A stretch of DNA of 64,000 nt, taken from positions 946,685 through 1,010,684 of the forward strand of contig NW_006917099.1 in assembly GCF_000516985.1 (NCBI RefSeq). Direction: 5' to 3'. Position 1 is the first letter of the stretch. The number at the start of each line of letters is the position of its first letter. Below are positions 852 to 49,073 of this stretch, piece by piece. A program made the translations under genes and the position numbers. The stretch is from Pestalotiopsis fici W106-1. Lineage: Eukaryota > Ascomycota > Sordariomycetes > Amphisphaeriales > Sporocadaceae. The notes under the pieces were generated by a model. The model saw only the letters and a list, made by a program, of their open reading frames with translations. It was not told the origin of the DNA and searched no databases.

Positions 852-3800
852 ATGGAACAAGACTCAAGAACAGAGGAGTCGCGAGAACGAGCCGTCTCCT
901 CTGAGCCCAGCTCTACGCGACCTTATCCTTTTGTCGGCGACGGCAACGATTCTGCACGAAAGCGTCGCCGCACCTCCATGGCTGGATCGAGAAGCAGATC
1001 CCTAGAGTCACTGCCGTCGCAGCCTCGCACTCGACTGCCGGCCATGTCTGCCAACGATTCCAACATGGCCATAGATACCCCAGAGCAGCCTCCCCCAAGC
1101 ACGCCGCCCCAATCCGACCTCCCTGCTGAGACACCCCCTGCCGAACCTCACTCTAGTAAGGTTACCATCAACTTACGGAATATTAACAATGTGGACGAGG
1201 GGGAACAAGCTCCTCCATCGCCGACCCCTGGACACCTTGATACCGAACATGTCAAGCTCAGCGTGGAACCGTCCGAAATGGAGTCTAGGCATCCATTGCC
1301 CACCGGGGCAGAGGTTCAATCCGTGCCTTCTTCCCCATCACCTAGCACAAGCTCAGAAGATCCGGAAATCAATCTGATACAAGATGAAGAGGAGATGGAA
1401 GATGAAGGAGAAGAAGAAGACGACGACGATGATGATGTGGAGCTCATTCATGTCCAACCTGTCTCAAACCCGGCAGATATCGGCGGCACATTCATGACGT
1501 TTCCCTATCATGATACAAAGGAAAGTCTATGTCAAACTGTCCGCCAGATCACTATCTTCTTTCAACAACCGCATCCACTTGATGAAGTTGTTCAGAAGCT
1601 CAGAGACTGGTTCAGGCAGTATTTGGATAACACCACTTCTGACGATCACGTTGCTGAGGGCGCTGCCGTGATTGTTAAGTCGGCAGACGATGTTCGCATG
1701 TTCTGGCAACAAATGCCCGAGCTCTTTTTGAATGTCTATTCGCGCAGGTATGTGATCAACAAATCATAACGACTTGCATGTCTTACCTGTGTCACGAGCT
1801 AACAACTTCCAGAAATGTCCTTTCCAAGAATGCCACCATTCGGGACCTTGGCACAACTTTCTTCTTACAACTACCACGGCTTTGTGCTCATTTGATCAAG
1901 TTGGACCTGCTCCTGCTTGCAGATTCCACCTCGGGCGCGTTCGAGCTGCTTTCACCAGGCCTACTTCACGCCCTTGCTACCATCACCTCTCGCCCGAGTG
2001 AGAAATACCAGATACAGAATGGGTACCACGTAGATGCTATACCTGATAGAATTAGGCTTTTGTGCTTGTTCCAGGATGAAATAGCCCGGCAGCATGGCCC
2101 TGACTTCAACGATGCAGCCATGGCCGGACTAGTCGCACTGGCCAATATGGCTGCAAACCACCCAAGCGTCCAGCCGAGAAAATTGATGGAGTACTTCAAT
2201 CAGATTTGTGCTCTCGGCGATTGCATTGTACGGGAATCCGAACACCAACGATATCCGACAATGGCCGCAGCAAGCGGTTCGGAGCTGCGATTGCGGTCCC
2301 CGCAAAACACTACCATGGCCTTGACATTGTTTAGAACTGTCTCAACTGCTTTGAGCAATGTGGTTGATAATTCTGCTAATCACTTCGCGGCGGATCTGGC
2401 CATGACGACCATGACGTACCTGGCTAATTTGTCAATGGCCGGATTACTGGGATCCCACAAGGCCGCCACAGATGCAATTCTGAATTACCGAAAGGACAAC
2501 CCAACATTGCCAGGCCTCTACACTGTTGACGCCATTGTGAACAGATGGCGGTTTCAACAACTCAGCAAGATGATCAAGTCTAGTCAAATGCAGTTGCGCG
2601 TTGTATCCCTAGGCTTCTTGAGCACTCACCTCGTTTCGGAATGGCAGAGGAGCCAGGAGCCATATCGCGAAGGTGCCATGCCGGACTATTTGCGGCACCT
2701 TTCCAAGCTGCTGAGAGATACTGGGCTTATCGAATATCTGCTGGGCCCTACATGTCATCCCGAAATTATTGTGGAAGCATACAACATCATTGGCTTTTTA
2801 GCCGTCACCGAGACGTACGAAGCGCGCCACACGGATTTGTTCTGGCAGACTATCACCACCGCTCAGGATCCCAGGATCTTGGAGGCGCTCGTCAAGATGA
2901 TGACAAGAACCGCGAGCCATTTCGGACGAGAGCCTCTGGCACATCTCATAGGAAAGATGCAGGGACTCCCTGTCGAGGCCTTCAATTCACACATGCGAGA
3001 ACTTTTGGAGACCATTATCAAGACAGCCACACAAAAATCAACCGATGCCATCTCCAGCATTACCAAATGGTGTTTGCGGTTGATCCAAGAGTCCTCGGTT
3101 CTCAACTCGCAAGGAATCTCGGAGCATATGGACGTGTTCGACTTTGCTTCCATGAAGCTAATGGAACTTGTGCAGCTCAGTCCAGCCTCAGATCTTCTGC
3201 GACAGGATTTGCGAACAGAGTGTCTTCGCGATATCTCATCGAGGAGCTCTAGCACTGCCGGAAGTCTAAATGTCCTATTCCGCCTCATCCGACCCGGTCT
3301 CGATCGCGAGCTTGCTAATCTTGTTGCGGAGCACGAGTTCCCGCGGTTGCTTGCAGAAGATCTGGAAACTACTATTTCCATCGCACGTGCGCATGGCACC
3401 AATTCGGTTTATGCTACCGTCTTGGGTAATGCGCGCCGCTACTTGATTGAGCAAGTTATTGCGAGACATGGCAGTGCAATTGACCGCATATACGTGGAAC
3501 AGTTTTGGCATCTGCTCGTTGGTGAGAAAGCGTTATCTCACAATGACAGGGTGGTGGGCTGGCAGTCTCTGAACGTTGCGCAGGGATCAATCACCTCTGA
3601 AAACGCTTTTCTGAAGCAGTGTTTGAAAGAGCATCTTCCGCGTCTATCTCCTCTTTTGTACTGTCCTGGCACGCTACAATTTTTGCGCGGGATCCTGGTC
3701 CCAATCGCAGAAAATGCGACAGATACAGCTCTGGAGAAGGAACTCAGTGACAACGCCGGCGCCGTCGGACTTTTGTGGCAAATGATTCTTACTGCTTTGC

Positions 3801-6800
3801 CCCAGACGATCGAAGCGGACGCAATTCATGTCCTCGTAAACGATATTTATGTCAAGGGCAAGGGAATCAACTCGTTCCCATTGGATCGAGCACGCAAAGT
3901 ACACCTTGCGCTCGTAGAAAGATGCTTCAACCAGATGGAAGACGCTGCCAAGGAACTACTCTCAAGCGATGCAGCAAACGCCAAGGACCATGATGACATG
4001 ACTGTGTCTAATGATGACCATAGCTTATACATTCAGGAGCTCAAATTTACAAGGTCGCTTCTCGTCCTTCGCGAGTTTGTCGCAGTCCTGCAGAACGGGT
4101 CTCATCATTTCGCAGCCCCGGACCTTCGACCGCTGATGCTGCAATCTCCCAGTATTGTTGAGGGCGCATCTGCAGAACTCAAGGTCCAATCGTTTGATGG
4201 AACTCGACAGACAGACATGAAGCCCCTTGCAATTGGCAAACAGAATACAGCTGCTTCTTTACTTGCCAGCATACGGGAGGTCACTGGCTTCAGTAACTAC
4301 CGCATCTTCTACCGCGGAAAGTTACTGACGCCGACGGAAGATCAGATCTGCAAGTCTCTCGAAGACCTCAACATCCACCACGGTCTTCTCTTGGTGAAGA
4401 AAGAGTCCGATAATGCGTCCACACCTACCAATATCAAACCAGGTGCTTCTCCATTGGAGATCGAGATTTTGGGCCATTTCCGGGCCTTGTGGAACTATTT
4501 GAGCATGGAGGAGAAGATCGCCAAAGAGGTGAGCTTGTCCTCCATTCCTACCACTATGTTTCATTACTGACTAGCGTTCCTTAGATTTACCATTTTCTGG
4601 TCAAGCTTCCGGCAGATGGGTCGGTTCTAGAGGCTTTGGAGGATCCAGCTACATCGCATTTGGATGTTTTCCCCCTGGGAGAGCCTTTCAAGTGCTTATA
4701 CACAATCCATGCCTTGCGTGAATACCTGAACACGCGGCGTCTAAGGTCTCTGGCGATTCACGCAAAAGGTACAGAGAATGACAGCAGTGAGATACCAGGC
4801 CAAAAGGAAAGTCTTTTGAAGACAATGTCACTGGTTGTTGCCGCGATTGAGGACCCTCAAGTCATCAATGGCTGTCCAAATGAATCGCTGCGATGCGAGT
4901 TGAATTTTCGTCTCCTGGATACTTTTGTCCAGCTATTGACTGGTATGTTTTCCCTTGACGCGTTACCTGTGATCATTTCTCACACAGCCACAGGCTTGGA
5001 TGATGTGCGCATGGTTGAACATTTCCTTACAAGGAAACTTCATGACCGGCTGGCGGCCCTGCTATCCGAGGCTTCCGCAGCGCAACATGCTCAGTATGCT
5101 GTAGAAGCCATCAATCGCGCGCTGAATGCTTTGCTTCAATGCTGTTCGCTCAGCGAGTCATTCTGGGGATTGTTTTGTGAAAGTTCAACAAGCAAAAAAC
5201 TCATCCAGGACCTTCTTCTTCGCGATGTTCGACCAGTCGTACGGAAGGGCACAGAAAAGGTCATCAGGGCTAAGTGCTCCTTCACTCGGGCAGGCTCTAG
5301 CACCTCGGCGCTGGAATTTACCGAAATATTCTGGCCTTTCATATTCGAACTGCTGCCTCAGGCCGCGCTTCAGCCAACCCAATCCGAAGAAGTTTTTTCT
5401 CTTCTGTCATTGCTGGTCGACATACTGTTCCAGGCTAAATCTGCGGTGCTAAACATCGAGGCATACTTGACACAATGCATCCAGCTAATCTTTGCCCATT
5501 CAAGCACCGAGGTCATCACAAATCCAGATAGAGTGGACATGGTCGCTTATGGAATATTGAAGTTGTTGCATTACGGCGTCAAATGCTTTGACCAGAGTGG
5601 GAGCATAGCATTCCCTCCCACTTTCGCCCGCAAGCTTCTCACGGTGCATATTTTCCCCGGCCTACGCTCGAAAGACACCAAAGCTCCCCGAGTCTTCTTG
5701 ACACAGGAAAATCGAATATTGCTATTCGAAATTCTCTATCAACTTGTCAAAGATAGCAGGGAGCAACAGCGTATCATGCTTCAAACATTGGGCATGTTGG
5801 TGGAATACAACCCAGAAGAGCCTAGTAATCCTTACTTGTACGATCTCCCACAAGGATTTGATCGGATGAGGGCTATCAGGACTCCAGGTGGCCATGCAGG
5901 ACTCAGAAACCTGTCTAACACTTGCTACCTGAACTCATTGTTCACGCAGCTATTCATGAACGTACATTTCAGACGATTCATGTTGCAAGTGCCATGTACA
6001 GGCCGCGATCATCATCTTCTGCAATATACGCAGACGCTGTTCGCAGAACTTCAAGACAGCATACGTAGATCGATTGATCCCACAATGTGTGTTCAGCAAA
6101 TCATGAACTACGACGACACACCCATCGATATTCACACCCAAATGGACGTTGATGAGTTCTACAACCTCTTATTTGACAGATGGGAGTCGCAGATGCCAAC
6201 AGACCGCGCCAAAGCGGACCTACGATCAATATATGGTGGTCAACTCGTGCAACAAGTCAAATCCAAGGAATGCGAACACATCTCGGAGCGAACCGAACCA
6301 TTCTCTGCAATTCAATGCGATGTCAAAGGCATATCCAGTCTACAGGAAAGTCTGCAGGCCTATGTGGATGGCGAAGTTATGGAAGGGGACAACAAGTATA
6401 AGTGTGGGAGTTGCGATCGCCACGTTGATGCTGTGAAACGAGCTTGCCTCAAAGAAATTCCTGACCATTTGATCTTCCACTTGAAGAGGTTCGGTTTCGA
6501 TCTCAGAACTCTGCAGCGCAGCAAGATTAACGATCACTTTGAATTTCCCACCGAGATCGATTTGAGCCCTTTCACGGTTGAGCATCTGAATGACACTTCC
6601 AGCGAAACCACGCCTGATGTTTTCGAACTTGTCGGTGTTTTGGTTCATTCGGGAACTGCCGAGTCTGGCCACTATTATTCCTACATTCGCGAGCGACCAA
6701 CCTCTGATGGCACACAGCCGTGGTTTGAGTTCAACGACGACAACGTGACTGCCTGGGACCCGGTGAATCTCGCAAATTCATGCTTTGGCGGCAGAGATAA

Positions 6801-17773: not shown

Positions 17774-18991
17774 TTACCATTCTGTCCTTTGATTCCAAGA
17801 TAGGGAGGCTTCCTTGCCGCACAGCGGGCACATTTCACCTCTTAAGGTATCAAGGATCACTGCGCTCATCTCTACTTTCTGTCCAGGTCGAAAGCATTGT
17901 TCCCACGGGCGACTCAGATCAATATCATGACATCTGGCTGTGTCAGTGAATACAAACGACTGGTCGCTACGTGGAATGCCTGATCGATCCATATTTGACC
18001 GTATGACGTAAAAGAACAACTGTTATATCGTGATATCAATAATGCGCGAACATAGCCTTCTTTTATGGTGTGGCAAGTAGGTAGTGACCTTACACTGAGC
18101 GAGGTTATGGTCTCAAGATGGAAGGGCCGTTGGAATCCCAAAGCGTCTACCAAGTACACTGGTTGTTGATTGAGTACTTGGCCGGGAATCTGTCGAACGA
18201 TATGCTGAAGTTCCATAACAGCAGCAAATATCCTGAAATCCATACGCCTGAGAAATATTGTTAGTAACAAAACTCCTTATGCTAAGAGGGAGTAACGAAG
18301 GGAAGACTTACATAGCACATGTGACTTTCTCCAGTATCCTGCAGAATGTTAGCTCCGACTTGAAAGACTATCTATATCAGACTTACCCTTCCATTTGTGT
18401 GAACATCGTCCTAAGATGCCCCATGTATTGATTCGAGACGCGCTGAATGAGTGACACAAGGGTTTGGTGTTTTGTGTCGCGGCTCTGATTCTCAATCTGT
18501 TCGCTTTTTCTACAAAGGCGAGTCAGCTACTTGCTCGTTACTTCTGAAATGGCCAAGAATAGTCACAATTTGACCGCCGACATGATGATATTCAAAGCTT
18601 GGGTGTGACCCAGCAAGTCAATCTTCAACCTGTCGATGTCATTCTGTTTGCAAAGGGCCCACTTGATCTTCATCCAAGTTTCTCTTGCTTTCAACGTCGA
18701 GGGCCTAGTGATGTGCGGCTGGTAGTTGCGCGCCGTGGCCCAAAAGTCATCAATGGTTCTTTGACATTCAAGCGCGGTGCGAGCGAGAGCAGTATGCTCG
18801 GCATACATGGACTCGTGCAGCTGAATGTCTTTGACTTGTATCAAGGCCGTCTCAAGGGAGAATAGCAGCCGTATCAAGTCACGAAACCTCTGACTCGTTT
18901 GACCGCTCGCTTGAACCGCGTCAATCACTGTCCCCACGAGCTCAATTGCCGCGACAAAATCGCCAACTGAAAACCCAAACGGGACCGTCAT
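17774..18991 (-). CDS. Fungal ubiquitin-like domain (ULD) protein with helical N-terminus (324 aa)
   Basis: Five exons on the minus strand fit in phase: 18991-18567, 18509-18387, 18338-18312 (27 nt), 18247-18094 and 18019-17774. The N-terminus (MTVPFGFSVGDFVAAIELVG, then a long alpha-helical segment) is the fungal helical domain often found at the front of NLR-like and ULD proteins. After the micro-exon, MELQHIVRQIPGQ...PVYLVDALGFQRPFHLETITS matches the fungal ubiquitin-like domain (ULD_2 type). It ends with DIDLSRPWEQCFRPGQKVEMS and a CPLC pair. No enzyme motif is seen. It is the first gene of the NLR/HET island, and such proteins are thought to be signalling or scaffolding parts, but no partner is known. 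The last open frame begins at an intron acceptor, not at a start codon. Confidence 0.82.
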
Positions 18992-19765: not shown

Positions 19766-22700
19766 TTACCCCTTCCCCTTATAAAGCTCTACAAACTTCA
19801 GGTCGCCATTATTCTTGTTGTATCCGGCAAACGTGTGCTGACTGCACACAGAAAACCCGGAGTGTTCCAGAACAGCCAAGCAATCTAAATATTTACGATG
19901 ACGCCTCCCATTCGCGATGAAGGAGTCTCTACTCGCAACAAGTCTGGGCCATCTATCGGCGTCAGGATTGCCGGCTGATAACCCAAAGCTTTCGATGATT
20001 CCCATAACGAACTCGTCACCCATGTCGATATTCCCATGAAATCTGAACCAGCCCTGAGAAACATGGATGGACTTAGTTGCGTTGTCTATCCAGAACGGCT
20101 CTGGCTTCAACCACTCGTTACCCAATTCTTGGTCATGCCTCAGGACTGCTACGGTCGTTCTATCTCTGTGAACAGGGTTGAGACGGCAGAACTCAACAAT
20201 ATTGACGGGCTCTTCGAACGCATCACCTTCCCATAGAATTGCAATCTCGTCTTCGCCCCAGAATGTGATATTCAAACACAGCATGTCTGGCGGAATACCC
20301 TGCGAATCGAAGAATTGTGAATCAAGCTCATTCCCGAGAATGCGGTGCAGCGCATATTTTCCGGTCGCAGTGTCCCACGTCTGGAAGATGAGAATTCTGT
20401 CGCCATCATCATCTTTCTGATGTGAGAATGAAAAGATTGCCAGTCGCTCGCCACTTGGTGAAAATGCGATGCCGCCTAGAATGTCTCCCTTTGGTTCAAA
20501 GGTCCGACTGATACAGTAGGATGGCAAGACACGGGTAAGAGATGGGAAATACGACACTAGCGTCTCCCATGCAGAAGTGAAAACATTGACAATCGGTGAA
20601 AGAAAAAATGGAACGCCCCGGGGATTGCTGACATCAGAGACATTCCACGTCACGGCCCGGGCTGCTCCGCGCTTGTCGGGGTCGTAGCAAGCCGCCAACC
20701 GAGATCCATCCTCCGAAATTGCCAAGAACCGGTTCTTTGACATAGAAAGATGGGGAAGAAGGCGGCTGTGAGAAGACTGCGTGTTCCATACCTCTACACC
20801 AGTCATCGTGTTGTATGCAATAACAGATCCATTCGCGGAAAGCGTCGTGGTTTCATGTTCTCGTGGGCTTGGCACTGGAAAACCGCGAGTACATCTGCAA
20901 ATGGAACTGAAGTTCCATCGGAGGCCAACCTCGCCAGGGCCACGATTCCAGCGACGAATCGATTTATCGGAGAATAATCCGACGAAGATCGCGGCATCTC
21001 GCGAGAAATGGAAAGATACCGGAGAAAGGGCCTCTTCCTCAGTGGAGTCTCGCAGCGTGTATGTTTGCACGCTTGCTTGGGGGTCTTGCCAAAATCGACT
21101 GTTCTGTGGATGAGAGTGGCTTGTGGAACCGAAGATGAGGGCACTCTGATAGCTCTCAAATAACCACAGACCGTCTTGGAAGCGAACCATGTCCATGATA
21201 AAAGTGGTAGCCTCTTTCAGGTTCGCCCTCAGCGACGGACTTTGCTGTGTCTGAGAAGCTTGTTAGAATAGCTCGGGCATTGATTCAAATTTATGGTGTA
21301 AGTCAGAGGATTGCAATAAGTAGGAAGAAATCGGATGGTTCACCAGCATATTGGTGCAAGGAATAGAATACTTTGGAGAGGGAATTTGTGTACCTCTGCA
21401 AGACGTGGCAGCTGTTTGACTAGGTCTAGGCCAACTCCGTAATCGAAGATGTCATTAACGTAACCGACTCTGAAAACAGTGTGGAAATCGCACGTCAAGA
21501 AGTCTTGAAGTAGGTGCATCGCGCGGGATCCTTCAGAAAGTTGGCCGTTATAGGAGGTGAGGAATTCTGCCCACTTTCTGTAGGCAAACTCCGCGACTTT
21601 CTTGTCGCACTTGTCAATCTCGAGCCCATCTTGGCGTTCTTTGCGAACCAGCTCTGATATCAGGGTCAAGCACTTTTCGCCCAGTTCGAGACCAGACAGA
21701 CTATCATTGTACGGGTAGAAAATGCAATCTTCAGCTTCCGACTGCTTGAGAAAATCAAGGAGTGACTTGTGATATATCTTCACGGGTGAATCCAGGTCGT
21801 CGCCACGAGGGATGTCCAGGATCGACTGCATGTTCCTTCGCAGCAGCAAGAGATCATGATCCATATCGGCAGATTCGAGTAAGCGTAATAGGTCTGCCGT
21901 GGAAAGCTCAACTGTAATAGCACATACGCTGTGGACAATAAGCCTCAAGCGTTGGACGTCTGCATCGTGCAAACCTCGGTCTACTATTTCGCGGAAGATG
22001 TTCCGATACATTGAAAACAGTTGGCCATTATTCCCAATCGGCACATGGGTGGAAGAGTCGTTGTCTTGATTCGTCTCCAGCCACTGCTTTAACATGTAGC
22101 AAGGGTCGGCCCACTGGTTTTCAACAAAGCGGCACATGGTGACGGCGTAGATAAAAAGAGGCTTTGGATTGGTGGCAAGGTAAACGGCGCGATTGAAGTC
22201 TTTCTCCGAGGGCCATTGGCCACCCTTTCTTGTGGCTGGCGTTTGCATCCCCTGGAACTTCTTCCTCAAGAAGAGGGATATGTCCTCCCGCGATTCTGTG
22301 ACGATGCCATCATCATCAAGGTCCACCATGAATTCTGGCTTGAGCTGAAACTGTTCGCCAATATTTTCAAGCATTGGTAAAGGACGGCTTGTAAAGACAA
22401 CTCGGGCACGTATAGATGGAAGATCCCGAAAGTTTGACAGTATTTCGAGAACTTTAGATACCGACGTCGTACATTCGTCCAGCGCATCGACAATGATAGC
22501 AATGCTAGGCTTCGACAATCGTTTGGATGGGTCCACAATGAGCTTTTTGAATAGCTCCTCTGAGTTCATCTCGCTAAGTTGCTTTGAATTGTAGTCCGGG
22601 ATACAGGACCGGAAGCCTTCAATCTTTTCGGCGAACTGGTCAGCAATTGTAATGATGAACTTGTTTATGTTACTTCGTTCAGGATCGATTCTCCTGAAAA

Positions 22701-23199
22701 AGTAGCTCCCCCCAAGCTGGAATTCCGGCGACGATGATCCTGAACCTTCAGTGCGAGGGATAGGTTGATCCAATCGAAGGCAAAGCGTCTTGGCAACTGC
22801 AGATTTGCCAAAGCCAGCTGGCCCTTTGAGCCAAATCATGTCTCCAGCTCCAGGAGCGGTGACCTTTCTCATGAGATTATCCAGCAGTTCTGATCTCGTT
22901 CCATCATAGCAATAGTCTTGATCTTCGTTGGCCTTGCTCTTGTAATGGGCTTGCCAGAGAGTGAGAGGAGGCCCTGGTGACTTGAAAATTTGAGTCCTGC
23001 TGTTGTCAAAGACGTTTCCGATGAATTGATGCGCGTTGCCACTGGCGCTAGCCTGCTCGACTTCGACGCTCACAGGGGTCACGTTGTGGTCGCTGGCAGT
23101 TGTCTCGGGCATCTTGGACCGATCAAGAAAACGATGATGAAAAGACTGCTCAATGGGCTTTCTGGCCATACTATCGTCAGTGCCCATTTGGACGCACAA
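19766..23199 (-). CDS. NACHT-WD40 NOD-like receptor with N-terminal HET-s-type amyloid motif (about 1,096 aa)
   Basis: A STAND-class signal-transducing ATPase. Two exons fit in phase 0: 23199-21394 and 21250-19766 (143-nt intron; junction LPRLAE/TQQSPSLR). The NACHT P-loop GPAGFGKS is at residues 126-133 and Walker B IAIIVDALDECT at 232-243. An NWD2-like helical region follows and then a degenerate WD40 region (for example FSRDAAIFVGLFSDKSIRRW) in the second exon. No PNP, HET or lipase effector domain precedes NACHT. Instead, residues 47-62 form VEQASASGNAHQFIGN, matching two C-terminal repeats in the divergent neighbour at 23768-24712. An alternative start at Met-30 (23112) would place the motif at residues 18-33, closer to the extreme N-terminus. 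I infer a sensor that, once oligomerised by a ligand bound to the WD40 part, templates the effector. Confidence 0.88.
23014..23061 (-). other. Receptor copy of the 16-residue HET-s-type motif (R0-like)
   Basis: This encodes VEQASASGNAHQFIGN. It aligns without gaps to the two motifs in the HeLo-like effector, sharing the first Val, Gln at position 12 and Ile-Gly-Asn at positions 14-16. Small residues (Ala/Ser) precede the conserved basic position. It is followed by an Asp/Asn/Ser turn-like segment. Confidence 0.65.
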
Positions 23200-23767
23200 A
23201 GAAGCATGAAATGAAACTTTTCGTTGGGAGTGAGGATTGTTGCTTGTGGGGGCTTCTGCATGTTACAAGGCTGTACAGATAGGGTGTCCCTCAATTGGTG
23301 CAGAATCCATCGAAGGTCTGGCAGCTGATGGTCATTCGCGAAAGCGACATGTCAAATAATACCTGCTAAGAGAAAAGTCGCACAGCACGTGCACGCAGAC
23401 TTTTGCCGTAATGGTAAAAGTGCGCAGCATGACACACTTCTGGGTCACAGTGGACCTCGCTCAGACGTGGCAACTGCACCTGCAGATGGGTCGTGGGTCA
23501 ACACAACACGTATTTGGCGCGCTCTGCAGATCCGTAAATATTGAAGACTTTGCCTTTGATTATCTTGGTTAAGGTACCTACCCATACTATTGACGCACCG
23601 CTGTCAATTTGGTTCATCGCAACACTTGGATTCTTCAAAATCACGAATCCTGCTTAGCGGCCAGCTGTTCAGCCAGCGTATTCGTCTACCCGTCGCCCAC
23701 TTATGGTAGATTTTGTTTTCTTGCTCGAACTGTTACTGGTATCTTCATTGTCCCAACAAATTTGGAG
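23200..23767. promoter_or_regulatory. Shared divergent promoter of the NLR/effector pair
   Basis: The 568 bases separate two start codons that point away from each other. No other gene is seen. A shared promoter would allow joint expression of receptor and effector; that is inference from geometry. An E-box-like CACGTG lies at about 23387. Specific regulators cannot be assigned. Confidence 0.45.
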
Positions 23768-24712
23768 ATGGCAGACCCCCTAAGCATCACTGCCAGCGCG
23801 ATTGGTGTGATAACCGCGGCTTTCCAAAGCTGTCAGGCTCTGAATGGGCTCGTTTCCAGCTGGGCCAATGCTCCAAAAACCTTGAAGGACCTTCGGGGCG
23901 ATCTCAGCGCCCTCCAAAATTTGATCCAATCCTTGCAACGTGAGGTTGCTACTTCAGATGACCTGTCCGCTGAGCAGAGGACATGCATTCTCGAGCTCGT
24001 GCCTGCGATAGAAAGCTGCAGAGATGCGTGCGAAGGATTCTCGGCGAGGGTATCCCGGGCAACCTCTCACTCGAAGGATGATCAAGTCGCCTTCCTTGAC
24101 AGGGCACGGCTGTATCTGGGCGAGAAGGACATCCAGACTTTCAAGTCACGCCTTGGGGACTGTAAGCAAACTCTGAATGTCGCTTTGGGAGTGGTCACAC
24201 TGTAAGATTGAGCAATACACAACCTTCAATCCGACCATGATGCACCGAAAACATAAATTCTCTATACTGAAATATCTCTCCTGCTCAGCAACACAATGTC
24301 CAAGACCCGAGAACAGATCAACGAGATGGAGACACAAACTGTCATGACGTTGAGCAGTCTCACGGGGAAACTGCAAGGCATCGAGCTCGCTCTCCAAGCT
24401 TTCCAATCAACCGAAGTTGCGATCGGCAGCAACGACGTAACACAAGTGCTCCAGGTGTTGAATGATCATGACCGTATGCTTAGGCAGTGCCTGAAGGTTT
24501 GCACAAGCGGACTGGGAGAGACAGCAAAGACGACGGGGACAACTGTGAAATATGCTGAGACGTTGGATCAGGCTCGCCAATTTATTGGAAATATTGGCGA
24601 CGTTGGGAATGGCGGGCCAGAGACCAACGTGGAGCATGGCCAGGCAAAAAATGAATCGAGGCAGGTGATTGGCAATATTGATGCGAGCTTTGCACGCGAT
24701 TACTTGTGTTAG
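23768..24712 (+). CDS. HeLo-like domain effector with two C-terminal HET-s-type amyloid motifs (285 aa)
   Basis: Two exons: 23768-24201 and 24289-24712, with a clean phase-2 junction (VVTL/NTMSK). I start at 23768 (MADPLSITASAIGVITAAF), the usual opening of the PF17111 class (PigL_N, earlier Helo_like_N); the open frame extends upstream without conservation. The N-terminal 200 residues are alpha-helical with a hydrophobic first helix. The C-terminal tail carries VKYAETLDQARQFIGN (231-246) and VEHGQAKNESRQVIGN (259-274), 28 residues apart. In known HET-s-type proteins two such repeats stack as a beta-solenoid amyloid and switch an N-terminal helical domain into a membrane-disrupting form. The divergent NLR carries one matching motif. 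Amyloid behaviour and toxicity to the host cell are inferred. The alternative, a chance resemblance, seems unlikely given three ungapped matches in adjacent genes. Confidence 0.85.
24545..24592 (+). repeat. Effector amyloid motif copy 1
   Basis: Encodes VKYAETLDQARQFIGN. It aligns over all 16 positions with copy 2 and with the receptor motif at 23014-23061. Confidence 0.65.
24629..24676 (+). repeat. Effector amyloid motif copy 2
   Basis: Encodes VEHGQAKNESRQVIGN and lies 11 residues before the C-terminus. Of the three copies it is closest in pattern to the classical HET-s-type repeat (basic, Glu-Ser-Arg, two residues, Ile-Gly-Asn). Confidence 0.68.
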
Positions 24713-26559: not shown

Positions 26560-28518
26560 ATGCCTGACACCGAGTCTGGGCCACAAGACAAGCAATTTCT
26601 GGTTGGCGACGATGCATTGACGAATGAACAAATCGACGCAGTAAACCTCCAAATGCCAGAGAAAACGGCGATCCAAAGCACACAGAAGGAGAGTAATGAA
26701 AGGGCGACACTGCTCCAGAGAGCCCAAAGACTTTACAACAGGGTCACCACATTTGGATTTGGGAGAAGCCCCTGGCTGTTCCAGTCGCTATCATGTCTCC
26801 TTTCCGTCACGCTCTTGTATTGTTTGATCACGATAGCGCTCACATATGGGAATCGACCCTTGAACCAATGGAGGACCACCATGTTTTCAATGAGTGCCCT
26901 TGTCTCTGTGCTTTCTACAGTTATGAAGGGGGCATTAATGGTACCACTCGCAGATACAATTAGCCAGCAAAAGTGGTCATGGTTTCGTCAGCCACTAGAA
27001 GGAAAACCTTTCAAGGATGTCGAGCGAATTGACAGAGTGTCAAGAGGAACATGGGGCAGCTTCCAATGGCTACTCAACTCCCCAATGGCGTCCAAGATAA
27101 TCAGTTTAGGGGCTTTCCTTACGATTTTGACACTTGCTTTCGATGTGTTTTCACAACAATTCATAAGCATTGATATTCGAACAGTCCCAGACCAGCTTGG
27201 GACAGCGTACTTTCCGTGGGTTTACAACAAGACAGAGTACGATCGACTCGCTTGGCTTGGAGCGATGTATAGTGGCTTCTTTAGCCATGAAGTGCGGGAT
27301 CTTGCGGCGACATGCTCATCCAGTAACTGCACCTGGTCAGCCATCTCTTCCGTTGGTATATGTGGTGCCTGCCACGACGTGACACATACGATGCCAACGA
27401 ATTGGAAGCAGTGTGATGATCATCAATGTCAATACACTGGCACATTTGTCTACAACGAGTCGGACCATATCGATGGATCAGGAGGCCGGAATATCTGGAT
27501 AGCGACAAATTTGACCCTCAATCACGAGTTCAACGTTACCGAGCCTTACAAATGCCAAGAGTTGACGCAGCTCAACAATGCAGCGTCATTCGCAGTCGGC
27601 AGAGGCGATGACAGGCTATGGAAACTACTGGGAGTGTACCCCTACATGAATGGGTCCATTGCTGATGGCGATACTATGGAACCCAAATCGAATAGCTTCC
27701 TAAAATCGGTGGAAGTGATCGAGGTGCCGCGACTTGGAAGTGATGATGAGGGCAATTGTCTTCTCAGCCATGGCACAGCAGCAACCGTCACCCAATGTGG
27801 CCTGTGGTATTGCAGACATGATTTTGACGCTCAAGTAACTCTGGGCATACAGAATCAGACCATGAGAGAAGGACCGCCAGCTTATAGTCCCGACGGCAGC
27901 AATGTAGAGTGGCTTATCCCCGGTCCGGCCAATACAACCCATCTCCATGTCGCGCGCATCGGATCAGAATTGGATCTGAGCCATTATCTGACAGGCAATG
28001 GAAGCACATGGTCCGTGAGCACAAATATGGGTGCACAGGTCTGGCAATCTAATCGCGAGGATAGGGACGCATGGATTTCTAGAGTGGCAAAGAGTTTGTC
28101 CAACGAATTACGTTCTCAGAACAAAGTTTCTATGAGTAATGGGACAGGGCAAACTCTGTTGGAAGAGGCGTATATCAAGGTTTCTTGGCCTTGGATCGCA
28201 TTTCCCACTGCCACTGTAGTTGCCGTGGTAATCTTATTTGTGGTGAATGTTGTTCACACTTCGCGATCAGGAGTACCAGTATGGACAAGTGGCTCGATTG
28301 CTCTTGCACTGGCAGGAATGGATGGAGGCATCAGAGACTTGGCGAAAGGCACTTATGATTCATACCATCAAATGATCGCCACGGTTGGTGATTGTATGGT
28401 ATCACTCAGGGAGGATGCATCCGGATATACTTTTATACGTGTCAGCAGTCCTAAGAAATCTTCCACGAAAGTACATGGAAATAGTCGATATAGCATACAC
28501 AACTCTGACGCTCAATGA
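26560..28518 (+). CDS. DUF3176 fungal membrane protein (652 aa)
   Basis: Single-exon gene. Hydrophobic segments lie at about residues 75-98 (SLLSVTLLYCLITIAL) and 106-130, the latter inside the DUF3176 block LNQWRTTMFSMSALVSVLSTVMKG. Another lies near 183-207, and one near the C-terminus at about 548-568 (FPTATVVAVVILFVVNVVH). The large loop between them is rich in N-glycosylation sequons (NKT, NCT, NES, NLT, NVT, NGS) and cysteines, consistent with a luminal or extracellular domain. Members are widespread in Pezizomycotina and uncharacterised. The stop codon overlaps, as ATGA, the first ATG of the broken TPP-enzyme fragment that follows. Confidence 0.85.
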   Translation: MPDTESGPQDKQFLVGDDALTNEQIDAVNLQMPEKTAIQSTQKESNERATLLQRAQRLYNRVTTFGFGRSPWLFQSLSCLLSVTLLYCLITIALTYGNRPLNQWRTTMFSMSALVSVLSTVMKGALMVPLADTISQQKWSWFRQPLEGKPFKDVERIDRVSRGTWGSFQWLLNSPMASKIISLGAFLTILTLAFDVFSQQFISIDIRTVPDQLGTAYFPWVYNKTEYDRLAWLGAMYSGFFSHEVRDLAATCSSSNCTWSAISSVGICGACHDVTHTMPTNWKQCDDHQCQYTGTFVYNESDHIDGSGGRNIWIATNLTLNHEFNVTEPYKCQELTQLNNAASFAVGRGDDRLWKLLGVYPYMNGSIADGDTMEPKSNSFLKSVEVIEVPRLGSDDEGNCLLSHGTAATVTQCGLWYCRHDFDAQVTLGIQNQTMREGPPAYSPDGSNVEWLIPGPANTTHLHVARIGSELDLSHYLTGNGSTWSVSTNMGAQVWQSNREDRDAWISRVAKSLSNELRSQNKVSMSNGTGQTLLEEAYIKVSWPWIAFPTATVVAVVILFVVNVVHTSRSGVPVWTSGSIALALAGMDGGIRDLAKGTYDSYHQMIATVGDCMVSLREDASGYTFIRVSSPKKSSTKVHGNSRYSIHNSDAQ

Positions 28519-29155: not shown

Positions 29156-29731
29156 TCGAGGTACTGATAGATGGGTAGATCCAATCAATAGAGCTGCATT
29201 GAAACGAGGACTTTATAACATTCGAGGATCATGTCAATCTCGATTGATAGATTTGCATGTTCTATTCCGGAGCCCAAAGAGATGGCACGCAGGGGGGAAA
29301 ACATATAACACTAGGGGTTGATTGCCTTCGCAGCTTCTGTGCCACTAGCGACTGTTGGTGGGAGGCACTTAGTGGGTGAGGCGGGGCACACATATACCCT
29401 TTCCCAGCATCCATTCACTCATATTACCATATGTTGGGATCCATCTTCCAGGCTGCTTCTTGCTTTATGTTGGCTCTAACTTGGTCGTAAGTATGCTCGC
29501 TGCATGCCCCAAGGGATGCCGCGGGGCCTGACTCATCACTGGAACCTGTGTCCATGAACCACACCCGAGGCAAGTTGTGTAAAGGTGTCAAATACCTTGG
29601 CGTAAGCAAGGACATTTGGACCAGGTAGCTTCTGGTATTATAGCAGACAATTTTTCCCCACTTTCACTTTCGACCCAAACTCCAAAAGAATTATCCCTTT
29701 GAACGTTATTTTGTCGACTAATTTAGATGCC
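29156..29731. other. Intergenic region
   Basis: No gene is recognised. The region includes the upstream sequence of the HET gene. Confidence 0.4.
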
Positions 29732-32161
29732 ATGGACGGAGTAACAGACCCGGACATTCCCAAGTTCGTTCGGGGGTATGGACGACGGGCTTGTGACTGC
29801 TGTCATTGGCCCAGAATGACGGAATATTTGCATCTTTGCTTGAACTGCGACTTCACCATGTGCGAGGATTGCTTTCATATACAGCACGTCCGGAATCCGG
29901 GACATCAGATAGGTCGAACAGTCCGGACGGCGCGAGACACGTCACCTACAGCATCGCCGCGTTCTGTCGAGTCCATTGAACATGACAGGAGCCTCGTCTT
30001 AAACGCTTCGCCACCTTCACGCGATAATTGGCGCTGTTGTACCACCTGCTTCAATTTCACTCCAGACTTCATCACTCCCACCTGGGAAGGGGCTTATTAC
30101 GATTGCTGGTGGTCGCATCGGGAATTGCGCATGTCTCACTTCAAAGCCTCGGCGGCCAAGGGCTGCGAATTGTGCTCGATCGTTTACCGCGGGGCATTGA
30201 AGGCGTTTGCAGACGTCGTGGCAGCCAACTCAAAGGTCATGTTGTGGGTATCAAAGCAGAAGCTTTCGGTCAAGGCCACCACCCGTGGAACGTGGCAACA
30301 TGTAGACTTCCATACCATGCCCGGCTTCCAGCCAAGATGGAATACACTTGAGCCAAAAGAGTATCTAAGCAGGAGCCTTCAGGATTCGCAATGTTTCGAC
30401 AAAATAAGAAAGTGGTTGAGAGTCTGCGAGACCACCCATAAACACCCGAAATGTCGTCAAAGAGCAGAGTCTCCCCTGCCTCGTCGGGTTATTACCATTC
30501 AGCCTACCGATGAGCCTCCAAAGTTGTGTCTCTATGAAACAGATGGCGCGACGGAGAAATACATTGCCCTCAGCCATTGCTGGGGCGGCTTCAAAGGATG
30601 CCAATCCACCACCAGCAACTATACCGATCGCATCAAGGGTATCGAGTTCGCAAGTTTACCGCGAACCTTTCGAGAGGCCGTCATTTTTGCACTGGAAATT
30701 GGCGTCTTCAATATATGGATCGATTCTCTCTGCATCGTACAGGATGACAAAGACGACTGGGAACGCGAATCCGCCAAAATGGCAGATATATACTCGAATG
30801 CCTACCTGGTCCTTGCCGCCGCATCGGCAGAGGCAGACGACAAGGGCTTCTTCACGGTTCCGGATATCATCTGCCGAGGAATCGGCTTGGAATCACAGGA
30901 GGGTAGTGCTCGAGATGACCTGGTGATGCACACCAGACTGGAGCACGACCTTTACACTGACGATATGCTTTCGCCGACTCCACTGAGCCCGATCAGTCGC
31001 GGGCCCTTGGGCACCCGGGCCTGGACCTTGCAGGAAACGCTGCTCGCTCGCAGGTGCATTGGTTTCAACGAGAATGAAATTGCCTGGGAATGCTTCAGCG
31101 CTGTTGACTGCGAGTGTGGTGAGAGCAGAGAGACCTCCGCCAGCGATCATGCGTCAAAGAACAATACATCCCAAATCAGGCACAGTGACTGGGTATATAA
31201 AGTCGGTGCCCGTCTAGAACTCGATTATGACAGTGTCAGTCTGCGATACCATTGTCGACCTCTTAGCCGGTTCGATGATATATCAACCACATATCTGGAA
31301 TGGCGAATGATGATCATCCCAATCTATACAAGGCGGCGACTCACAGTCCCTGGTGATAAACTACCGGCTCTCTCAGCACTTGCTTGTAGCGTGGGTAAGT
31401 TCTCGGGGGATCAGTATCTCGCTGGTATCTGGTTGGCTGATATCAGGCTTGGTCTGGCATGGCGGGTGGGAGGAGAATCGCAGAGAAGCCCATCCCCAGC
31501 TCCATCTACTTGGGTGGGCCCGTCATTCTCTTGGGCCTCTGTTGACGGGGAGATTGACTACTTGTTTTCAGCCCGAATCTTGGAAGATGGCGGTAGCTCG
31601 CCATTTGGATTCGTCGATGTCAATGTCCTCGATTACGGTATGGAATTATCGGGCTTGAACCCTTATGGCGCTGTCAAAAGCGGCTGGATAAAGCTCTCCG
31701 CGCTCTCTCAGACATTCAAACTCGAATGGGACTCGACAGAGGAGAGGTTTAAACTAATCAACGAGTCGGAGTATGATTTGGAGAGTCTTCACTTCCAACC
31801 TGACACAGTGCTCTGCAAATCTCACATCAGCGGGCCCGAGAATGAAGAGTATGTATCTGTGCTACGCTCGACCTCTAGGAACGGCATCGAATCATCTTTG
31901 AATGCTTCTGTTCAAGGGGCATTCGTTCTAGATGGGCCCGTGGAATCAGGTGGAAGTGGGAGTTCTGAAAGATCAGGCGGAAGTTCTACGGACAGTGTTG
32001 GGTCGCACTTGTCTCATGATATTGTAATGGTGGTACTCAGTTTATTTTCCACATGTCCAGACAAATACCAGCGAATCGGTTTGGCGACGGCATCTTTGGA
32101 ACCTGAGTCTGTTGGAAAATGGTTGGAAAGCGCGACACGCAAGGAATTCATCATCATCTAA
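29732..32161 (+). CDS. HET-domain protein with N-terminal ZZ zinc finger (809 aa)
   Basis: Single-exon gene. The start is ATG 29732 (MDGVTDPDIP); the open frame before it lacks an ATG. Residues 21-58 hold a ZZ-type zinc finger (CDCCHWP...CLNCDFTMCEDC...H). Further cysteines (CCTTC, CELC) precede the HET domain, which opens at about residue 275 with YIALSHCWGG and contains FNIWIDSLCIVQDDKDDWERESAKMADIY (read in pieces) and GTRAWTLQE. HET proteins trigger cell death on heterokaryon incompatibility. Within the island this gene may be another recognition or execution factor. The C-terminal third is variable, with a Ser/Gly-rich stretch near residues 745-770. No intron is needed. Which alleles it opposes is unknown. 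Confidence 0.9.
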   Translation: MDGVTDPDIPKFVRGYGRRACDCCHWPRMTEYLHLCLNCDFTMCEDCFHIQHVRNPGHQIGRTVRTARDTSPTASPRSVESIEHDRSLVLNASPPSRDNWRCCTTCFNFTPDFITPTWEGAYYDCWWSHRELRMSHFKASAAKGCELCSIVYRGALKAFADVVAANSKVMLWVSKQKLSVKATTRGTWQHVDFHTMPGFQPRWNTLEPKEYLSRSLQDSQCFDKIRKWLRVCETTHKHPKCRQRAESPLPRRVITIQPTDEPPKLCLYETDGATEKYIALSHCWGGFKGCQSTTSNYTDRIKGIEFASLPRTFREAVIFALEIGVFNIWIDSLCIVQDDKDDWERESAKMADIYSNAYLVLAAASAEADDKGFFTVPDIICRGIGLESQEGSARDDLVMHTRLEHDLYTDDMLSPTPLSPISRGPLGTRAWTLQETLLARRCIGFNENEIAWECFSAVDCECGESRETSASDHASKNNTSQIRHSDWVYKVGARLELDYDSVSLRYHCRPLSRFDDISTTYLEWRMMIIPIYTRRRLTVPGDKLPALSALACSVGKFSGDQYLAGIWLADIRLGLAWRVGGESQRSPSPAPSTWVGPSFSWASVDGEIDYLFSARILEDGGSSPFGFVDVNVLDYGMELSGLNPYGAVKSGWIKLSALSQTFKLEWDSTEERFKLINESEYDLESLHFQPDTVLCKSHISGPENEEYVSVLRSTSRNGIESSLNASVQGAFVLDGPVESGGSGSSERSGGSSTDSVGSHLSHDIVMVVLSLFSTCPDKYQRIGLATASLEPESVGKWLESATRKEFIII

Positions 32162-45236: not shown

Positions 45237-48200
45237 TTATAACAGCATTAAAGCACCCGCCTTTTCCAGCCTCTTTACGATCTCCTGGTGTCCTTCGTAT
45301 AAAGCAGCATAAAGAGCGTTACCGTAATCTCCGCCTTGGGCATTAACGTCGGCTTTGTTATCGATTAGAATTTGCACGATCTCCTGGTGTCCTTCGGCTG
45401 AAGCAGCCTGCAAAGCGTTGCCGTATGTTCCGCCCTGGGCATTAACGTCGGCGCCGTTGTTAATTAGCAGCTGCACGGTCTCCTGGTGTCCTCCCTCTGA
45501 AGCAGCCTGCAGAGCGTTGCCGTAACTTCCGCCCTGGGCATTAATATCTACTTCCTTCGTCTTGAGAAGCAGTTGGACCACTTCAGTATGTCCATTCTCG
45601 GCTGCCCGCAATAGCGGTGTCCCACCTGTACTATCTTTTGCATTTTGGTTCCTTTTATTCCATACTGCAGGTAAAACTTTTGCAAGCCCAAAAATGGCTG
45701 CAAGGTGTGTTGCTACCATTCTGCTAGGTGCCCTTTGACTGTATCCCGGATAGTGCCAGAGCCTACCAGTAAAATATGCTTGGACTGATGCATCGATCTG
45801 CGCAGGTTTCCTAAGAAATCCAAGCACTTCCTCACATCCAGGGGTTGCTCGTGCGTGGTGACCCCAATGAGAAGCCGCATATTCAAAGAATGGATGTCCC
45901 TTGAGACGGTCCTCATACTCCTGATCGCTCTGGCAGCGCCCGTTTGCAAAAGCGTCGAATGAAAGATATGTAGTGCAAGTCGCTGCTAATGCCGAATGCG
46001 CTGTAGGAAACCATGTGTCTCGCGTGCTTTCGAAGTAATGTTGTGTCGTGTAATGCACCAATCGGACAATGCTGCTCGCTTCATCGATTGTTACTAATCC
46101 TGCACAGACGGAAACCACGTCACGGATTTCTGTAATGTTATCATTATCGAGCTTTGTTTCACCGATTTCAACGGCAAGAGCATGCTGCAATTCTGTCTTG
46201 GTGAGTGGCCGTTGTGCGCATGTGATCCATGCTAGCACTTGCTTCGCACGCTTGGCTTGCCCTTCGAGCTGGCCTTCGATTCGTTTCATCGCACCATAAT
46301 ACGCTGCCTCATAACTTTTCGAGCCGTTTACCAAATCCTGCAATGCGTTCCGCAAGACCTTAGGATTATCTTTGTCCATGAGAGTATCGCAATAGAGCTG
46401 AGCAAGCAGAAACCTGGTCAATTAGCATAGCTCGGTTGGACGTGTTTACAACAGACCTACATTCCGTCCACTGTCCGACTAATGGTCTGCGTGATCTCGT
46501 CTTGCAAGTCGCTTCTCTCGGCAACAAACTTGGGAAGGCGTGATACGGCGCCTTTCAGATATCTTTCGATATCTTCTTCACTAGCTCGTATCTCAATTGT
46601 CAAGCCATTCGAGAATTCCTTCTCAATGTCAGGCATATGCCGAGACGTCGCGAAGACGCTAATGCTTTGATGAGTCTGGAGGCTGAAGAGTTGGTGGAGG
46701 AATCGTGCTCTGCAATTGTCTGCCACCTGGCATTCGTCTAGTGCATCAACGACGATGAATATCCTGGCAAAAGTTGCAGCCACAGCCTGAAGTGCCGTTG
46801 CGATCTCTTCCAAAGTCGGTCTGGTTTGTTTCCTCGCATGTTCCCCGTGGAGCTTATATAGAACAGGCGGTAAGAAGGGACCGTTGCAGGCCAGTTGTTT
46901 CAGCAGGCTAGACATGAGATGCTCAAGTTTCTGCTCCACTTGGCGGTTGAAATTGCAGTAGACGTAGACCACCGCAGTGGTGAGACCGGCAGAAAAACGA
47001 GTTTCGAGGTTGTCGATGACGATGGATGAGAGAATTGTCTTGCCAGCTCCAGGTATGCCAGGACAAAATAGTCTTTGTCCAGGCTCTTCTACCCACCTTT
47101 GGTATGTTTCGCAATCAAGAAGCCACTGTCCTGTGCCAGGCTGTCGTCTTCGCAAATAGTCGGAATGCTGCGGGCCGAAATCGACAGGAGTGAGCCAATT
47201 CAGCACTTTGAGATCCTCTTCTCTTTCAAGGATGAGTCTAGTCTGCGCAACTTGAGATTTCGTTTCAGACAGCTCACTGGACACTATTTTTCAACGTTAA
47301 AACCTTTGCTGCAGCACACAGAAATTGCTTGGAATTACTCACCTCTAGCTAATACATCCTTTACCGTTTCCTCTTGATCGACATCCTGTGGCTGGATATA
47401 TCCCAGAAGCTCTTTCGCAAATGCTGCTGCAACGGCAGCAGCATGTTCCTGCCACGCTTTGTTTTTGTGCGAGTCGGCGTAGTCACAGATGCCTCGAATC
47501 ACAATGCACGGGAAGTTGTCCATCAGTCCCGCAGCCTCCATTTCGACACAAAGGGCGTGCTTATCCATGTGTTTCGACAACTGATCCCTAACGCTGGCAT
47601 CCTTGACCACCTGGTTACCCGATGCGATCAGCCCATAGTGCACGCGCATGTCTCTCGGTTTCCTTTTTACTATCTGGGCCTTGTCGCAGTGCTGGCAGTC
47701 ATCTTGAACGTCATCCTCTGATTCATCCTCCCCATCCCCTGAGGAATCTTGATGCTGCTTCTCCACATGACAATAGCTTGCTTTAAAGAGGACATCTCGT
47801 AGAGAATCAGATCGCAGGTATTTCGGTACTAATAGTGGCCAGTCTTGCCGAATCTGATCCAGGTATTCTGGAATCCTTGTGCCCTTCATAGCAATATCCG
47901 ACTCCAGCGTCGTCAAGGCAGATAGAAGCAGATTTGGTGGATTGTTCAGCGCACCCGTTCGTCGGAATGTCCCGCCTTGCTCGGCCTTGCCCATGTCCCA
48001 CTGCACGACGCCAGGAAACTGATCAACAGGTACGCTGACAACGACGTCTCCAAGCCGTACTTTAGGCGGGATGCCGCCACCAATACCGACCATCAGCCCG
48101 AATCGGACGGCTGGAAAGGCGCGAATCAAGTGGGTGGCAACAGTCGCAGCTGAACTGGTGCCGATCTTGCCCTTTGGCAAACAGGCAATCACGACATTAT

Positions 48201-48363
48201 GGCCACAGATTGAGCCGAGCGTGTAGGAGTTGGGGTCGTTGGGAGATTTTGAGAGGCTCGGGTGTCGCTCCTCGAGCATAGCGAATGCGGCCGTCTGCTC
48301 CTTAGGCAGGGCGCAGACCCAGCCGACTGTGTAGGCATCGTGCGTGCGCGGGCGCGTTGCCAT
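45237..48363 (-). CDS. PNP-NACHT-ankyrin NOD-like receptor (1,006 aa)
   Basis: Three exons fit in phase: 48363-47343, 47283-46461 and 46413-45237. Residues about 12-325 form a nucleoside-phosphorylase-like domain (YTVGWVCALPKEQTAAFAML, GLMVGIGGGIP, VEMEAAGLMDNFPCIVIRG), here used as an N-terminal effector. The NACHT P-loop GIPGAGKT is at 416-423 and Walker B IFIVVDALDEC at 515-525. A winged-helix-like region and then ankyrin repeats follow from about residue 878. The final three repeats (911-1006) are nearly identical 33-residue units sharing YGNAL.AA...GHQE.V, and the C-terminus stops inside the last one. An acidic insert (Asp/Glu/Ser-rich) interrupts the PNP domain near residues 215-235. 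PNP-type NLRs are thought to act in non-self recognition. The ligand is unknown. Confidence 0.9.
45240..45527 (-). repeat. 99-bp coding repeats (ankyrin units)
   Basis: Units at 45429-45527, 45330-45428 and 45240-45329 (the last one truncated) encode near-identical 33-residue ankyrin repeats with high nucleotide identity. Such recent duplication within a repeat domain suggests rapid unit turnover. Confidence 0.9.
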
Positions 48364-49073
48364 CGCGAGTCCCTCGGTGAGAGTGCTCTCGGCAGTTGTT
48401 GATGGATACGCAATGACTCAGTTAAGAGTTCGGTGCCATGACCAGGCGGGCAGGCAGGTGAGGAGTTGAGGAAAGTCCTACGCAGCCTCGCGGGCTGACT
48501 CGACAGCGCTTAATGCATGTCGCATTGCTGCGACTATGGCGGTGATTGGCCAGCAGTGTGCATGATCATTATGTGCGGGGTCGCATAGCCGCGACGATTT
48601 CTATCCTGTTCTATGCGATAGTAACAATTGAAACAAAGTCCTAATCAACATGCATGACTGCGCAATTATAAGTATTTTGTGTTTTCAAAGGCATGTTCTA
48701 GGATGCACATTAGCGTTGACCTACAGTGGGCGACTGATCATGAGTTAGTACCTGGTAATTTAGGGTGTACGCACTGAGCGGCTAGCAGGGTGTAGCGCTA
48801 CTTAGGGCAGAGCGGATGGGAAGCTGGGTTTTCTAAGAGCTATGATCGTATTTGATAAACATGATGGAGAAATACATACACACTGGCTAAGACTACAATC
48901 TCAGACTTCCAGCATTGGGTAGTTTGTACGCTCTAATGCTCCGACCGTCCTTTTTTTCAAACTTACAAAAGTCTCGTCTATACACTGGCCCGACACAGCA
49001 TGGAAAACTGTACAAGTTACGTTTCAACACAAAACAAAGGGCAGAAATAGTTTGATCGCTTATATAAAGTGTA
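48364..49073. other. Intergenic region
   Basis: Upstream region of the PNP-NACHT-ankyrin gene, followed by the 3' flank of the next minus-strand gene. No exon is recognised. Confidence 0.4.

Follow-up and report, generated by a model that had tools for sequence, protein, structure and literature searches.

In the closest described systems of fungal amyloid signalling, a NOD-like receptor (NLR) and a neighbouring effector gene share a short motif. HET-S and NWD2 of Podospora anserina are encoded side by side, the NLR carrying a single motif and the effector a pair of them, whereas HELLF and FNT1 of that fungus combine a HeLo-like effector head and two C-terminal repeats with an NLR neighbour that carries a single copy (r0), and HELLP and PNT1 again combine a HeLo-like head with a neighbouring NLR. 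Prion behaviour, membrane relocation and cell death have been reported for HELLF (PMC7885112, PMC7889193). In the description of the HET-s-related amyloid motif (HRAM) given in PMC4518210, effectors have a HeLo, HeLo-like or SesA head, are no longer than 310 amino acids (aa) and end in two imperfect copies of ~21 residues, separated by a loop of 6-18 residues that is usually glycine-rich and followed by aromatic residues and a diglycine, and the adjacent NLR contributes one class-matched r0. We analysed a 64,000-nucleotide stretch of Pestalotiopsis fici W106-1 (contig NW_006917099.1, here C9, positions 946685-1010684 in a 51.7-Mb assembly; hereafter the window), in which the NLR gene PFICI_11711 and the effector gene PFICI_11712 can be read, with high confidence, as a two-gene amyloid signalosome of the HRAM superfamily, of the class whose motif has Q at position 16 (Q16), working like NWD2/HET-S and FNT1/HELLF.

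The two genes lie head to head and are divergent, their outer ATG codons being 580 bp apart, and this arrangement, proposed in an earlier sequence-only reading, was borne out by splice models identical to the deposited proteins. The NLR gene on the minus strand consists of exon 1 at 21394..23187, which encodes r0 and a NACHT-type nucleoside triphosphatase (NTPase), an intron at 21251..21393 and exon 2, including the stop codon, at 19766..21250, which encodes the C-terminal region. Its reading frame of 1092 aa yields the deposited 1067-aa PFICI_11711 (sequence P0013), whose start is Met26 of that frame, at position 23112. The effector gene on the plus strand consists of exon 1 at 23768..24201, encoding the N-terminal part of the HeLo-like domain, a GT...AG intron at 24202..24288 and exon 2, including the stop codon, at 24289..24712, encoding the rest of this domain and then the two repeats r1 and r2; the spliced product is identical over all 285 aa to PFICI_11712 (P0001), deposited as a hypothetical protein.

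The three ungapped 16-mers that the sequence-only reading had placed near the NLR N-terminus and at the effector C-terminus are real and all in frame, at 23014-23061 on the minus strand (r0, residues 43-58 of the 1092-aa frame), 24545-24592 on the plus strand (r1, effector residues 231-246) and 24629-24676 on the plus strand (r2, residues 259-274), but the unit they belong to is the 21-residue HRAM and not a 16-mer. In the position numbering of Daskalov, Dyrka and Saupe 2015 (PMC4518210), the 16-mers represent positions 5-20 of motifs lying at 23011..23073 (minus strand; residues 14-34 of the deposited NLR), 24533..24595 (plus strand; residues 227-247, with G19 at residue 245) and 24617..24679 (plus strand; residues 255-275, with G19 at residue 273). 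Most HRAMs are placed at positions 5-9 in PMC9815663.

The published HRAM rules comprise an invariant G19, generally hydrophobic residues at positions 5, 8, 10, 16 and 18, and a preference for R or K at position 15 (PMC4518210). V5, Q16, I18, G19 and N20 are common to all three window motifs, and position 15 is H, R and R in r0, r1 and r2, respectively; the Q16 is the exception which defines the motif class, position 16 being otherwise expected to be hydrophobic. The same paper gives Q at position 18 for class HRAM4 and at position 16 for class HRAM5, and judged by its residues the window pair is assigned to the Q16 class. The effector also agrees with the published description in its size and its head, and in a loop of seven residues, four of them glycines, between r1 and r2 and aromatic residues after r2; the diglycine described for the family is absent. 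Three other assignments were rejected: the Q18 (HELLF) class, given I18 in all three motifs and no match to PDB entry 6eka; the pseudo-palindromic (PP) motif, described as NxGxQxGxN (PMC9815663), given a core Q-[FV]-I-G-N that lacks both a G two residues ahead of Q and any G-x-Q-x-G; and the sigma motif, which is described as ~40 residues long (PMC5485727).

The domains of both proteins were examined by Pfam scans. In the effector, PF17111 (PigL_N, the HeLo-like family) matched strongly over residues 2-217 (23771..24505 on the plus strand, split by the intron; E 7.5e-36, 123.9 bits against a cut-off of 27.2), SesA stayed under its cut-off, and PF11558, the canonical HET-s prion-forming domain, was not found among Pfam families at E up to 1. 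The earlier statement that the head is HeLo-like and not canonical HeLo was therefore right. PF11558 matches only 38 of 155 double-motif proteins in PMC4518210, and a genome search with it returned nothing here, as did the controls of that search. In the NLR, NPHP3_N (PF24883, E 3.4e-21) was above its cut-off over residues 110-268 (22384..22860 on the minus strand) and NACHT below. No repeat or propeller family exceeded its Pfam cut-off at the NLR C-terminus, where the best match was PD40 (E 0.0093); because only this sub-cut-off family matched, a WD-repeat propeller is not established. The structure predicted for that region from single-sequence input had a predicted local distance difference test score (pLDDT) of 37; neither the model nor its fold search is interpretable.

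The similarity among the three motifs was compared with composition-preserving shuffles of the two stretches (n=5000). The r0-tail score of 36 was reached in 7 of 5000 shuffles, the r1-r2 score of 36 in none, and both together in none. Searched as a DNA pattern, Q-x-I-G-N occurs at 77 sites in the 51.7-Mb assembly in comparison to 38 for a reversed-pattern control, and three of the 77 fall in the 4,947 bp of the two genes (Poisson P ~7e-8, a post hoc value, as the pattern was picked after the motifs had been seen). Apart from the window motifs, only two of the sites have any of the listed genome matches (150 NPHP3_N, 29 HeLo-like) closer than 5 kb, and neither is near a HeLo-like match.

Further support came from relatives in other genera. 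A homologue search with the effector returned 11 proteins including itself, among which three from other species had full coverage, with overall identities of 48% (Annulohypoxylon truncatum), 47% (Fusarium decemcellulare) and 46% (F. albosuccineum) and tail identities of 53-65%; a fourth relative, P0005, had 96% coverage and 30% identity. Both tail repeats are present in all four relatives (P0002-P0005), and Q16 is kept in 8/8 foreign r1/r2 repeats. The NLR search returned 18 proteins including itself, and among the six inspected, the window's own included, an r0-like motif was seen in P0014 (48% identity) and P0015 (41%), each covering about half of the protein, and not in three further relatives. 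Profiles were then scanned against 56 sequences (the window and 55 loci; 7,048 translated segments, 443,791 residues). A profile made from the eight foreign r1/r2 rows only ranked the window r1, r2 and r0 first to third with 39.5, 25.8 and 13.0 bits, the next segment having 6.9 bits, and a profile made from the two foreign r0 motifs placed r0, r1 and r2 on top with 12.7, 12.0 and 10.1 bits, followed at 7.4 bits by the tail of a canonical HeLo protein at C4:1307k. The coordinates and this ranking bear out the arrangement of a single receptor motif and a pair of effector motifs, which the sequence-only reading had likened to that of HET-s and NWD2. Its expectation of motif co-variation in relatives was supported, to the extent that the compared sequences allow, by the recovery of window motifs by both foreign profiles, but the E value of 0.032 for r0 is modest and no relative was represented by both genes.

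An effector search with alignment gave seven proteins, three of them new (P0031-P0033). By eye, P0032 (Fusarium globosum), and perhaps P0031, appear to have two tail repeats of a different type; in P0032 these lie in the last 80 residues and look HRAM-like. Some longer HeLo-like proteins (P0008 and P0033, ~440 aa, and L042 1367-2702 on the plus strand) have a C-terminal segment ...AQL[VI]GSM..., which MAFFT aligns with r2 in the case of P0008; L042 was not among the best 12 of the HRAM profile.

To place the pair within its genome, family matches were listed (150 NPHP3_N, 29 HeLo-like, 9 HeLo, 26 NB-ARC and 24 DUF3176), and the surroundings of 23 of the 29 HeLo-like matches, in the window and 17 regions, were viewed with their tails judged by eye; the other six each have an NPHP3_N match within ~1 kb on their own strand and resemble NLR heads. 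Three more head-to-head HeLo-like/NLR pairs with a shared motif were found. Two of them, at C9:1050.7k (L045) and C7:3539k (L044), are of the Q18 class, and the third, at C2:5074k, has the PP motif, with the HeLo-like effector at 870-1879 of L043 (minus strand) and an NB-ARC/TPR-type NLR at 1880-4344 (plus strand). The tail of the L045 effector matches PDB 6eka (E 3.3e-20), which we take to be the HELLF prion domain, the entry being listed as a Podospora chromosome 3 product, and HELLF is therefore Q18; the L044 tail is a near-copy of the L045 tail.

Ungapped scores over 18 residues between NLR N-termini and effector tails were 38 for PFICI_11711 with PFICI_11712, 65 for the C2 pair, 36 and 40 for the C9:1050.7k NLR with the C9:1050.7k and C7 tails, and 42 and 36 for the C7 NLR with the same two tails. 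The highest between-class score was 35, for the window r0 with the C4 tail, and the next was 26. From this four-pair matrix, the class of r0 appears to track that of the adjoining effector's tail within the genome, in four pairs only and with the two Q18 pairs indistinguishable from each other. The agreement is weaker over 14 residues, where the C9:1050.7k NLR scores 25 with its own tail, a value that 127 of 1000 shuffles reach. With a profile built from the four Q18 effector repeats, the C7 r0 obtains no more than 5.7 bits.

The between-class score of 35 points to the alternative that survives best, namely that the NLR signals also, or mainly, to an unlinked executor. The C4:1307k protein (L058 4174-5372, minus strand) is a canonical HeLo protein (HeLo E 4.2e-26) with a double KQ-x-NGN C-terminal repeat of the Q16 type, and no listed NPHP3_N or NB-ARC match lies within 5 kb of it. 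Of 1000 shuffles, three reached its score with the window r0 over 14 residues and four did so over 18, its tail directly followed the three window motifs in the scan with the foreign r0 profile, and trans pairs are discussed in PMC9815663. However, its repeats have N instead of I at core position 18, they reach only 5.1 bits in the foreign r1/r2 profile, and in the foreign r0 profile the 7.4 bits stand against 12.7 for the window r0. We consider signalling to C4:1307k unlikely, and the adjacent PFICI_11712 is retained as the partner of PFICI_11711.

In a signalosome of the kind proposed, a ligand would trigger oligomerisation of the NLR, the clustered r0 segments would nucleate a beta-solenoid amyloid, this amyloid would template the conversion of r1 and r2 in the effector, and the HeLo-like domain would then refold, move to the plasma membrane and kill the cell. 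All steps past the gene structure, including amyloid templating and cell death, are suggested for this pair by analogy to the characterised relatives NWD2/HET-S and FNT1/HELLF.

Several observations weigh against this interpretation. The repeat core is weakly hydrophobic, with A, A and G at position 8 and A, T and A at position 10 of r0, r1 and r2. The r0-like motif of P0014, one of the two foreign r0 motifs, carries A instead of Q at position 16, r0 alone is a modest match to the foreign profile as given above, and the window r0 fits the unlinked C4 tail as well as the partner tail over 14 residues (35 in both cases) and only slightly less well over 18 (35 in comparison to 38). Opposite charges facing each other between stacked repeats are published for HRAM (PMC4518210), and it speaks for the interpretation that among the five effectors r1 and r2 carry them at position 6 in four, position 9 in three and position 13 in three (the sign at 13 being inverted in P0004); against it, the window effector has such a pair at position 6 only and P0005 lacks them altogether, while charges of equal sign face each other at position 12 in two and position 15 in three of the five, the latter being the conserved-R exception to charge complementarity in the same paper. 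PDB sequence searches with the whole effector, its tail and a four-species tail profile gave best E values of 0.04, 0.68 and 0.093, respectively, which are chance-like, and retrieved neither the HELLF nor the HET-s structure by effector or tail sequence. The AlphaFold2 model of the effector, made from five sequences, had a mean pLDDT of 59, and residues 226-275 were below 50 with only two 3-residue strands; a Foldseek search with it gave unrelated helical proteins, none with E below 0.001, and no HeLo or MLKL protein among the rows shown, which excludes nothing. In the literature searched, no fibril, seeding or cell-death test of PFICI_11711 or PFICI_11712 was found.

Some of these points would fit a non-amyloid homotypic contact between receptor and effector, through short peptide docking or a coiled assembly: the tail model is not a solenoid, and no structure or fibril data were found for the Q16 class in the papers searched. 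On the other side stand features typical of HRAM, namely G19, I18, R15 in r1 and r2, charge complementarity and the two-plus-one copy number, together with the beta-solenoids reported for HET-s and HELLF (PMC4518210, PMC7885112, PMC7889193), which make such a contact very unlikely. We give an equally low probability to the pair having been turned to allorecognition, or to the effector being a non-killing prion-like allele in the manner of het-s against het-S; HET-s in Podospora provides the precedent (PMC7885112), but the reading frame and the full HeLo-like domain of the effector are intact, as seen in data from this one genome only. A chance likeness of neighbouring low-complexity tails, which might be invoked for a short motif at sites chosen by eye, is scarcely credible in view of the shuffles, the foreign-profile ranking and the conservation across genera.

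The HRAM signalosome remains the preferred interpretation, and its components can be compared with those of the described systems. HELLF differs in having Q18 in comparison to Q16 in the window, and 6eka is matched by the L045 tail and not by that of PFICI_11712; FNT1 has NB-ARC and TPR, in comparison to NPHP3_N/NACHT and a C-terminus without a family match above cut-off in PFICI_11711. HET-S has a HeLo head where PFICI_11712 has a HeLo-like head and no PF11558 match, and an NWD2-type receptor combines NACHT with a WD-repeat C-terminus, in comparison to NPHP3_N above and both NACHT and PD40 below cut-off here. HELLP and PNT1 differ by their single pseudo-palindromic motif, and their counterpart in P. 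fici is the separate C2:5074k pair. No difference was found from the HRAM5 class of 2015 as described in PMC4518210, with which the window pair shares Q16 and G19 throughout its three motifs, R15 in both effector repeats, a double-repeat effector of less than 310 aa and a neighbouring NLR that bears one r0.

The sequence-only reading had suggested that the pairing and the motif variant might be undescribed, and this did not hold: the HELLF/FNT1 arrangement is known (PMC7885112), and the Q16 class was named, and P. fici counted, in PMC4518210. Table 1 of that paper gives two HRAM4 effectors and one HRAM5 effector for P. fici and one HRAM4 for Podospora anserina. The genome content found here agrees, with two Q18 and one Q16 HeLo-like effectors, the latter being PFICI_11712; the two frames of C4:1307k together exceed 310 aa and are thus over the size limit of that paper. 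By elimination, PFICI_11712 is probably the HRAM5 effector that was counted. Later papers label HELLF HRAM5 (PMC7885112, PMC7889193), and since HELLF is Q18, the HRAM4 and HRAM5 labels appear to have switched places after 2015 (PMC4518210 in comparison to PMC5485727 and PMC7885112). The legend of Figure 3 in the 2017 review illustrates HRAM4 with W3WR35 and W3WR59 of P. fici and HRAM5 with Podospora (PMC5485727), and if the labels were exchanged, this example would be the Q16 pair of the window. The two accessions together are thus probably the pair analysed here. A literature search found no paper for the two locus tags, and W3WR35 in PMC5485727 only; for the Q16 class, neither a solved structure nor a functional test turned up in the texts searched. 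The pair is real and well supported, already known in kind and very probably as this very pair.

A gene of the DUF3176 family (26560..28518, plus strand; PF11374 E 1.7e-26) lies 1.8 kb downstream of PFICI_11712 on the same strand, and by eye it encodes a membrane protein with several hydrophobic stretches. At the Q18 pair C9:1050.7k, ~80 kb away, a DUF3176 match is again found just downstream of the effector on the same strand (L045 1490-3735, minus strand; C9:1048976), with a stop inside in the genome search that indicates an intron or a break. Of the 24 DUF3176 matches listed, only these two have a HeLo-like or NPHP3_N match at a distance of up to 6 kb, one more is equally close to an NB-ARC match, and no DUF3176 match is near the C7 or C2 pair. 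A literature search on the family in fungi listed a single paper, which concerns membrane-bound regulators. The chance of DUF3176 beside two of four pairs is ~5e-5, a value which ignores that any neighbour family might have caught attention. One could speculate that the signalosome includes DUF3176 as a third gene, which might act as a surface sensor or provide the executor with a dock at the membrane, and which would have been retained after a duplication as a change of motif class separated the two pathways, but we regard this as doubtful. The members of the two C9 cassettes are only 24-36% identical over aligned parts, and with identity this low an old local duplication explains the co-occurrence as well as a shared function does. 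The presence of a DUF3176 gene beside two HeLo-like/NLR pairs is a detail absent from prior listings.

Other genes of the window were also noted. Past the 3' end of the NLR gene, an open frame at 18563-18991 (minus strand), which more exons may follow, is weakly HeLo-like (PF17111, 25.8 bits, just below the cut-off of 27.2); it was rejected as a partner of the NLR, as it is below cut-off and no motif was seen in the frame. A further NLR-type gene at 45237-48417 (minus strand) has a PNP_UDP_1 head, an NPHP3_N NTPase and ankyrin repeats that look very similar to one another, and an open frame of 851 aa at 29606-32161 (plus strand) has a HET (heterokaryon incompatibility) domain (E 6.4e-28).

In general, the PFICI_11711/PFICI_11712 pair is a clean and intact example of a known principle, in which immune-type receptors are presumed to cause fungal cell death through amyloid templating. 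With the two Q18 pairs and the PP pair in the same genome, it would make a good set for asking what keeps amyloid channels separate.

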